From contig NZ_CABVHK010000011.1 in NCBI RefSeq assembly GCF_902497785.1, forward strand, positions 62,001 through 126,000: a stretch of DNA of 64,000 nt, in the 5' to 3' direction. The notes below the pieces were generated by a model. It was not told where the DNA came from. It saw nothing but the letters and a program-made list of their open reading frames with translations, and ran no database searches. This document shows, piece by piece, positions 6,748-8,758 of the stretch (its first letter is position 1; each line of letters begins with the position of its first letter). The position numbers were made by a program, and so were the translations under genes. The stretch comes from Pseudomonas fluorescens (GTDB lineage: Bacteria; Pseudomonadota; Gammaproteobacteria; Pseudomonadales; Pseudomonadaceae).

Positions 6748-7263
6748 TCAACGATTGTTGCGACGCCAGAAGAATCGAGCCAGCAACGCATCGACGCTGA
6801 GCTTGCCGGCACCGGCCAACAACAGTGGCATCAGGGCAGCGAGGTAGATCAGCGGCAGTTTGAAATTGCCGTGGCCTTTGTTGGTGATGGCGTAACCCTG
6901 AGCCAGCTCACTCAATGTAGACCAATCGGCCGGCCAGTGAACGGCAGCGGTCGCAACCACAGTGACCACGATCAGCACGATGGCGCTGAAACGGGTGCCC
7001 AGACCGACCAGGATAGCCAGGGCGCAGATCAATTCGGCCCACATCGACAGTTCCCAGTTCAGCGTTGCCGGCACCTGGTCGAACGGAAACGGGAAGCGCT
7101 CCTGAATGTCGGCAAACCAGTTTTCGCCGTTCCATTTCTCCAGGCCGGACTCGAAGAATTCCCAGGCGATGAACAGCCGCAAGGTGAGGGGGGCCAGCCA
7201 GCTGCCGGCGCGGTCAAGGTTCAGGTGCAGGCCTTTCATGGCCGACGAGAGTGCAGTGTTCAT
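6748..7263 (-). CDS. DoxX family membrane protein
   Basis: 171 residues with about four hydrophobic segments. The start [19 protein letters not shown] matches the DoxX N-terminal helix. The ATG is preceded by CGGAGAT. DoxX-type proteins accompany HvfA/HvfB/HvfC-type copper-peptide operons, and here the gene follows an HvfA-like peptide gene by only 54 bases. By analogy it may be the membrane redox or export component of that system. The two genes that normally lie between (DUF692 enzyme and its DUF2063-type partner) are absent here. The molecular function of DoxX in such operons is not firmly known. Confidence 0.85.
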
Positions 7264-7290
7264 GGACGTGATCTCCGTTCAGTCAGGTCC

Positions 7291-7310
7291 GCGGGGCTGG
7301 GCGGCCCCGC
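7291..7310 (-). promoter_or_regulatory. GC-rich hairpin between HvfA-like gene and doxX
   Basis: Perfect 7-bp inverted repeat GCGGGGC / GCCCCGC with a 6-base loop, starting 8 bases past the stop codon of the peptide gene. It could be an attenuator or mRNA-stability element lowering DoxX relative to the peptide. No T-run follows, so it is not an obvious terminator. Confidence 0.4.
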
Positions 7311-7317
7311 GCAGGGG

Positions 7318-7521
7318 TTACTCGCCGGCGCCGCACTTGCCTTCGCCACATTTGCCTTCAGCCGGTTTTTCCGCGGTGTCGGCTTGAGCCTGGCTGTAGC
7401 CGTGGGCCAGTTGCTTCATGCTGAACGCTTCGGATTCGGAGGCCGAGGCGGCGTTGGACAGGGCCAGGCCGCCAGCGATGATCAGGCCGAGGGTCAGGGA
7501 AGAAGTCGAGAGCTTGAACAT
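7318..7521 (-). CDS. HvfA-like cysteine-motif peptide (putative RiPP metallophore precursor)
   Basis: 67 residues, ATG preceded by GGAG. Residues 1-27 form a signal peptide (LGLIIAGGLALSNAASA). The middle (28-54) is Ser/Glu/Gln-rich and contains MKQLAHGYSQAQAD. The tail carries two exact tandem EGKCG motifs (residues 55-64) and then AGE. EGKCG repeats define HvfA-type precursors, in which DUF692 (MNIO) enzymes convert cysteines to copper-binding oxazolone-thioamide groups. The assignment rests on the signal peptide, motif, size and the adjacent doxX. The genes for HvfB (DUF692) and HvfC are not next to it or anywhere in the window, so whether this copy is modified is open. Confidence 0.75.
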   Translation of the reverse strand: MFKLSTSSLTLGLIIAGGLALSNAASASESEAFSMKQLAHGYSQAQADTAEKPAEGKCGEGKCGAGE

Positions 7522-8158
7522 GGGTGATACTCCGGTGCATTGAGTGAGTTGAGTGCTTTGATCGGCGTGGCCAATCGACAGACACAGTTCATCAAGCGGG
7601 TGTATCTGCGATGTGTCGCTGGCGCGGGGTTTTAGGGCGGGGGTGTGTCAAGGGCGGGGTTGTACACACTGTGATACGCAGGCCTCGACTTTCAGGTCGA
7701 ACGCAGTACAAAGGTGGGAGCGAGCCTGCTCGCGAAGGCATTGTGGCAGGTGTACCCAAACACCCACGCCACGCCCATCAAATTTCTCACTGTGCGAGTA
7801 GGCTCGCTCCCACAGCGGAAATAATCAGCCCGGCGGTAGTGCTGCGGGTCAATGAACCCAGGATGCCTTCTTGCGTGGGCGTAGAGTCAGCGGATACTGA
7901 ATGAGCCGCCCGCATTTTTACTGCCTTGCGCCGCAAATCCTGGCTCGCCGGATTGCAATTTGCAGCGGTCAAGCATGGCTTTCTTGCATATTGCATGGCC
8001 CGATTTTTAGACGAAATCGCTAAACCATTGATTTACCGATGAACTGCAGGGCGGAATGTGAGGCATGTTTTATGCTGTAGCTGTTCCTTAAAGCTGACCG
8101 GTCTACAGAGTCAGTATTTGATTGTTGTTGGCTATCTCACACTCAGGAGAGGGTTGCC
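7522..8158. other. Intergenic region without a supported gene
   Basis: 637 bases. It should hold the promoter of the HvfA-like gene (left side) and of the DUF1652 gene (right side, where TCAGGAGAGGG precedes the ATG). The middle is a REP pair. Small open frames occur but overlap the REP sequences and lack ribosome binding sites. I could not place a convincing -35/-10 pair. Confidence 0.6.
7713..7816. repeat. REP pair (inverted)
   Basis: GTGGGAGCGAGCCTGCTCGCG near 7714 and an inverted, slightly diverged partner (GAGTAGGCTCGCTCCCAC) ending near 7815, separated by about 55 bases. Same family as the elements at 8941, 11569, 14326, 36650, 38221 and 57590. Confidence 0.85.
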
Positions 8159-8491: not shown

Positions 8492-8758
8492 TTAATTCTG
8501 ATAACTGCACGCATCCGACAGTTTGCGATAGGTAATCTCTGCGGGTTTGCCTGACGTATCGATGTACTTCATGTCCGCTGTAATGACTTTGCATTCCATT
8601 GTTGTGGGTTCGTTCAGCGAAATGACCTTGGCCACGTGCAGCGGCATGCCGTAGTGATAAGGCACGGCTTGAGAGGAGGCGGTGTCGTTGGCCTGCGCTA
8701 GCCCGGCAAAACCGGTGCAGGCGAGTGCGGCGGTAACCAGCAAAATGCGTGTGTTCAT
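8492..8758 (-). CDS. DUF2790 family exported protein
   Basis: 88 residues with a clear signal peptide (residues 1-23, ending GLAQA before NDTA). The mature part YHYGMPLHVAKVISLNEP, then MECKVITADMKYIDTSG and a closing cysteine (DACSYQN) match DUF2790, a family of small periplasmic Pseudomonas proteins with two cysteines that may form a disulfide. Function is unknown; some paralogues respond to copper or stress. Monocistronic by layout. Confidence 0.85.
   Translation of the reverse strand: MNTRILLVTAALACTGFAGLAQANDTASSQAVPYHYGMPLHVAKVISLNEPTTMECKVITADMKYIDTSGKPAEITYRKLSDACSYQN

Follow-up and report, generated by a model that had tools for sequence, protein, structure and literature searches.

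The closest described systems are the HvfABCX, or oxazolin-captophorin (Buf_EGKCG), systems, for example HvfA of H. influenzae and the fontiphorin FonABC, whose genes lie in one cluster. FonA carries seven modified sites, and FonBC modified a substrate with two EGKCG repeats (loss of 8 Da) and not one with a single repeat (PMC12668002). Stand-alone precursors, and several precursors for one MNIO/partner pair, have been described in general, and modification from another locus has been stated as a possibility (Antoine et al. 2025, PMC12452194). In the passages cited here, that paper names neither a promoter element nor a regulator common to the separated units, and gives no special place to this Pseudomonas lineage. 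The role of DoxX proteins has been called open. In P. aeruginosa, the EF-hand protein gene efhP (PA4107) forms one operon with PA4106 and PA4105, which encode DUF692 and DUF2063 proteins (PMC4053335), under the OmpR-family regulator BfmRS. Among the top three ChIP regions of BfmR is efhP-PA4106-PA4105, and no gene is more strongly activated by it than efhP (PMC8025907). The efhP homologue of strain Pf0-1 was noted in 2014 to be without a DUF692 neighbour (PMC4053335).

We analysed a window of 64,000 nucleotides (positions 62001-126000 of contig C11) from a Pseudomonas fluorescens draft genome of 6.64 Mb in 69 contigs. An earlier note on this DNA had described a 67-residue peptide with two EGKCG motifs, encoded 54 bp before a DoxX gene with no hvfBC between them, and both open reading frames were recovered as described, on the minus strand (Table 1). 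The N-terminus of the peptide looks by eye like a Sec signal peptide, and its C-terminus reads AEGKCGEGKCGAGE. The assignment of the peptide to the HvfA type held at the domain level, with 24.6 bits against a cut-off of 19.5 for NCBIfam NF050137 (KCGExKCG_twice), and failed at the level of the HvfA equivalog NF050188 (21.1 against 95 bits); no Pfam match to the peptide was found up to E 1. On these scores it is best filed as an EGKCG-domain precursor and not as HvfA proper, although we call its gene hvfA below. Codon differences from seven orthologues were mostly silent (7-14 synonymous, 0-4 nonsynonymous), so the 67-aa frame is under purifying selection.

Table 1 The precursor-hvfX pair and its promoter boxes in the window.
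Feature	Position	Strand	Remarks
Promoter box 1, GTATC-N4-TGTGTA in gene direction	7663..7677	-	about 150 bp upstream of the start codon of the peptide
Promoter box 2, opposed, GTATC-N5-TGTGTC	7602..7617	+	start-to-start distance to box 1, 61 bp
hvfA-like EGKCG precursor gene, 67 aa	7318..7521	-	signal-like N-terminus by eye; two EGKCG motifs; NF050137; mostly silent codon changes
GC-rich stem-loop, in the 54 bp that separate the hvfA-like gene from hvfX	7291..7310	-	folding of the spacer
hvfX (DoxX family), 171 aa	6748..7263	-	over the NCBI HvfX cut-off NF050144 (152.4 against 80 bits)

No DUF692 or DUF2063 gene was found in the window. A search of the whole genome for these two families, as the earlier note had proposed, returned one gene of each on contig C1: an MNIO gene at C1:391714-392550 and a DUF2063 gene directly 3' of it. 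A genome without a DUF692 gene was thus ruled out. The MNIO protein exceeded the HvfB cut-off NF003818 (418.7 against 360) and stayed under that of the BufB model (275.6 against 310), which rules out a bufferin-type enzyme in place of the HvfB type; its neighbour exceeded the HvfC cut-off NF050145 (259.8 against 142). By curated cut-offs, the genome therefore holds the same EGKCG precursor, HvfB, HvfC and HvfX families as the described systems. A second EGKCG precursor, of 132 aa with EF-hands, is encoded on contig C6. No precursor or doxX gene lies beside hvfBC, upstream of which is an acetamidase/formamidase-family gene, and the distance from hvfA to hvfB would be 260 kb or more even with their contigs end to end. 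The side-by-side arrangement of precursor, MNIO and partner gene that marks an hvf/captophorin cluster was thus absent. Whereas the captophorin genes, like the efhP genes of P. aeruginosa, stand together, the EF-hand gene, hvfBC and hvfA-hvfX occupy three separate places here; the window peptide also has only two EGKCG motifs, in contrast to the seven modified sites of FonA.

The distribution of these genes was surveyed in 149 genomes of the genus using the profile cut-offs for HvfX and HvfB. An MNIO was present in 122 genomes, HvfX over its cut-off in 64, and HvfB over its cut-off also in 64. HvfB occurred in 63 of the 64 HvfX-positive genomes and in one of the 85 others (Fisher's test 5e-40, uncorrected for relatedness); the same test of any MNIO against HvfX gave 2e-6, likewise uncorrected. 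The exceptions were G075 (87% complete), in which HvfX matched only in part and no MNIO was found, and G107, with HvfB only. A search with the peptide matched 66 genomes, comprising 63 of the 64 with HvfX and three of the 85 without it; the matches in those three covered residues 1-45 only (G044), residues 1-52 only (G059) or the EF-hand precursor (G107). NF050137 was exceeded in 63 of the 64 HvfX-positive genomes, the exception being again G075. Among all 149 genomes, G107 (L345, L219) is the sole one with HvfB and no HvfX over the cut-off; its EF-hand precursor is encoded where a contig begins, and hvfB close to where a contig ends.

Layouts were then classed in the 64 HvfB-positive genomes (G075, without HvfB, being left out), with genes less than 4 kb apart counted as together. 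Precursor, hvfB and hvfX were together in 26 genomes, precursor and hvfB together with hvfX apart in 10, and precursor and hvfX together with hvfB apart in 15; all were apart in 12, seven of them with the EF-hand precursor only, and G107 made up a class of its own without HvfX. Orthologues of the window pair accounted for 14 of the 15 genomes with the precursor-hvfX layout; the fifteenth, G088, combines another precursor with a diverged HvfX (57%, without a box). The comparison with related Pseudomonas thus found the same pair in 14 genomes, all with hvfB elsewhere. The distance to hvfB is 0.66-1.53 Mb in five genomes made up of a single contig and 87 kb within one contig in G074; in the remaining eight, the source genome included, hvfB is on another contig, and draft contigs alone are no proof of distance.

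A similar arrangement appeared outside the genus. In the gammaproteobacterial MAG BRH_c0, one contig carries precursor and hvfX and another carries precursor, hvfB and hvfC, both near contig starts (L253, L305), and a Sulfuriferula MAG (L297) has precursor and hvfX, with no hvfB found within the 5.1 kb examined. In a tree of MNIO proteins, a clade of 30 rows (support 99/97), nested among layouts of the clustered kind, was made up of G053, G100, G107 and the 27 genomes that have no precursor close to hvfB; the branching inside it was mostly unresolved. This nesting is consistent with a single origin of the separation of hvfB from its precursor, which may have occurred only once. G053 and G100 carry an orthologous HvfB (92% and 90%, respectively) directly 3' of a precursor 68% identical to the window peptide.

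These results also bear on the hairpin between the two genes. The GC-rich hairpin was real (folding energy of the 54-bp spacer, -24.3 kcal/mol), and the enzyme genes had been suggested to have been deleted at this place. Eight of the 14 loci with the pair, the window counted, had a spacer of 54-58 bp with a GC stem; among the other loci, the script had taken an earlier start codon in five, and G058, which had no frame meeting the size filter, showed by eye the spacer with a similar GC inverted repeat. Since the pair and similar spacer stems recur in relatives, a local deletion that left the hairpin as a private scar was ruled out. As a guess, the stem-loop may favour the precursor message over that of HvfX.

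A 17-bp word before both hvfA and hvfB was first spotted by eye. This core, GTAYCNNAGTGTGTACA, had exactly two exact matches in the 6.64 Mb, upstream of hvfA and upstream of hvfB; five more places appeared at two mismatches, and the reversed control gave three at up to two mismatches. The sites consist of a forward and an opposed TGTATC-type repeat, 59-62 bp apart start to start, and boxes 1 and 2 were the only half-site matches in the window. Boxes paired at 59-61 bp were located at seven promoters of the source genome, namely those of hvfA-hvfX, hvfB, the acetamidase gene, the EF-hand gene and an alpha/beta-hydrolase gene, and two regulator/DUF2790 intergenic regions. These seven were drawn from the 24 matches of a looser pattern (at most one mismatch); the looser pattern was not enriched overall (24 matches against 23 in the reversed control), and six of its seven exact matches had a partner box, C18:31676 being the one without. 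No paired boxes were found in 152 kb of loci L012-L052 or in 60 mononucleotide shuffles of the window.

A weight matrix was built from 14 hvfA promoters, the window included, so that its 36.3 bits at the window are no test; the hvfB, hvfX, EF-hand and bufB loci alone serve as one. Applied to 30 hvfB loci outside the training set, it scored 18.7-30.9 in 20 and 8.1-16.1 in ten, and the maximum over 30 bufB control loci was 13.9, which overlaps the ten low hvfB loci. A half-site pattern, also looser, was present upstream of hvfB in 26 of 30 cases, with a precursor preceding hvfB in three of the four misses, and upstream of precursors in 30 of 34 regions, or 28 of 32 distinct ones, as two loci had been included twice; some of the upstream regions begin at an over-long frame. 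It preceded all 21 recognised EF-hand precursors, in a count whose filter skipped L205 and L216, both encoding EGKCG EF-hand proteins. Upstream of bufB genes it was found in none of 30, and its rate in shuffled sequence was below 1%. Of the 20 hvfX loci away from hvfB that were tried (one unrecognised), 14 of 19 had a site and 12 had both boxes. Where the precursor lies near hvfB, the nearer groups had a site at 25 of 27 precursors and the full pair at 10, whereas in the most diverged colinear hvf group (11 loci, two without a recognised precursor frame) the box was found at none of nine. From this distribution, the box is older than the dispersal, yet not universal in the genus. The occurrence of the same rare pair of boxes upstream of each of the scattered genes makes one regulator for them probable.

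Several further genes were noted in the course of this search. The acetamidase/formamidase-family gene with its own paired boxes (L002 4243-5571, contig C1) also precedes hvfBC in at least 8 of 20 relatives' loci. The alpha/beta-hydrolase gene with paired boxes (L228, C11:33811) encodes a signal-like N-terminus and may likewise belong to the regulon. A DUF2790 gene (window 8492-8758, minus strand), with no box-like site upstream, adjoins the peptide-hvfX pair, and both boxed regulators are also neighboured by DUF2790 genes; for DUF2790 and copper, the literature found, in the part cited here, concerns only lanthanide-responsive DUF2790 genes of P. alloputida (PMC11520305). C1:327744, a 44% match to the peptide preceded by one box-like site, was rejected as a third precursor: it is a repeat protein without EGKCG, alike only at query residues 5-49. 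Its PtrA-like match was under the cut-off (26.9 against 31) and gives no copper signal, so we do not claim a copper-specific regulon. Beside the EF-hand gene (L010 4409-5132, contig C6; also in L205) lie three identical 71-aa frames, one every 254 bp, which are possibly repeated RNA genes.

The peptide might instead act unmodified, as a periplasmic thiol or metal peptide with HvfX, leaving HvfBC to serve the EF-hand EGKCG protein only. Seven of the 12 genomes with all units apart have the EF-hand precursor only, so HvfBC can be kept without a peptide of the window type, and unmodified precursors have been named as a possibility (PMC12452194). On the other hand, the pair has the same promoter plan as hvfB, both EGKCG motifs are conserved, and G046 has the pair and HvfB, with no EF-hand precursor found. 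We therefore consider an unmodified peptide unlikely.

As for the regulator, two paralogous OmpR-family regulators, RR1 and RR2, adjoin paired boxes. The distance between RR2 (C1:397061-397798) and hvfC is about 3.8 kb, and the next gene after RR2 encodes a histidine kinase. Of 20 loci around hvfB in relatives, 3.3-17 kb in length, 15 contained orthologues of RR2 and its kinase, and a paired box preceded the regulator in all 15. A complete hvf cluster of Steroidobacter agaridevorans (hvfX, EGKCG precursor, hvfB and hvfC) stands next to homologues of the regulator (74% identical) and of the kinase (55% identical, 311 residues); its precursor runs by eye into an EF-hand-like stretch, and GATACA-TTTC-GATACA lies between regulator and hvfX. 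A PDB search with RR2 returned general OmpR-family proteins, the best being 4b09 (BaeR), and included an entry named BfmR (5hm6, E 8.5e-33, organism unstated). The BfmR box of P. aeruginosa has been given as TACAA-N3-GATACA (PMC8025907) or, alternatively, as GATACAnnGC (PMC4148453); judged by eye, the window sites have a like direct-repeat plan and fit the published box loosely. The regulator may be BfmR-like.

Dispersal and modification in trans could also be combined with boxes that belong to a regulator other than RR1, RR2 or a BfmR-type protein. OmpR-family regulators with look-alike direct-repeat boxes are many, the fit to the published consensus is loose, and 5 of the 20 loci showed no RR2 near hvfB; of these five, L329 consists of a 3.3-kb contig and L345 stops 0.4 kb past hvfB. 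The unbroken association of paired boxes with linked RR2 promoters and the neighbourhood of the Steroidobacter homologue argue against another regulator, and we regard one as quite improbable. That the pair is a non-functional remnant of a lost cluster, as the in-frame loss of the N-terminal signal region from the G058 precursor might suggest, is very hard to reconcile with the mostly silent codon changes, the conserved boxes, the intact HvfX and full or nearly full-length matches to the precursor in 13 of the 14 pair genomes. The G058 precursor frame (L084, G058:C24, start codon 1541) begins MKQLAHGYSQ, without a signal-like N-terminal region, at a locus that retains both EGKCG motifs, the boxes and hvfX; it may be a natural test of the need for export, or a decaying copy.

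Considering these results, we favour, with reasonable confidence, the reading that the locus is the precursor and hvfX part of a complete but dispersed HvfA-type system, modified in trans and under BfmR-like regulation. An HvfB-HvfC pair is present in the genome and HvfB tracks HvfX in the genus, which argues for a dispersed and not an enzyme-less system. Deletion, one of the explanations offered earlier, is ruled out for this genome by a two-gene pair common to 14 of 149 genomes, and "reduced version" is better replaced by "dispersed version", as the enzyme pair is encoded elsewhere in the genome. The alternative of a distant enzyme gained from the single HvfB-HvfC pair, from its co-occurrence with HvfX and from a shared promoter site with no third exact match. 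Neither of the two observations named as contrary to the earlier note, relatives with the pair but no DUF692 gene and a peptide unrelated to HvfA by profile, was made.

Here, we propose a model in which a BfmR-like OmpR-family two-component system, responding to an envelope or metal signal, probably activates the scattered units by way of two TGTATC-type boxes spaced about 60 bp from each other. The HvfBC complex encoded on contig C1 would most likely convert both peptide cysteines in trans before export; this modification is plausible because the window peptide has two repeats, as in the substrate accepted by FonBC. The exported peptide, with HvfX in the membrane, would bind copper or a similar metal in the envelope, and the same HvfBC would probably also serve the EF-hand EGKCG precursor. 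More tentatively, in this Pseudomonas lineage the pathway may form a regulon in place of a gene cluster, with one HvfBC, two unlike precursors (a two-motif peptide with HvfX and an EfhP-type EF-hand protein), a BfmR-type switch and a fixed two-box promoter. The two-box promoter and the link to a regulator appear unreported, since none of the papers listed by our literature search, with most subscription journals outside its scope, deals with BfmR together with MNIO peptides.

If this is true, the calcium phenotypes of EfhP and the most activated target of BfmR in P. aeruginosa would concern a thiooxazole-modified metal-binding protein. Peptide mining mostly seeks adjacent precursor and enzyme genes; parts that lie up to 1.5 Mb apart in relatives could be rejoined through the promoter signature. 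The model would also supply a candidate regulator for EGKCG metal peptides and join the literature on BfmR and EfhP with that on MNIO peptides.
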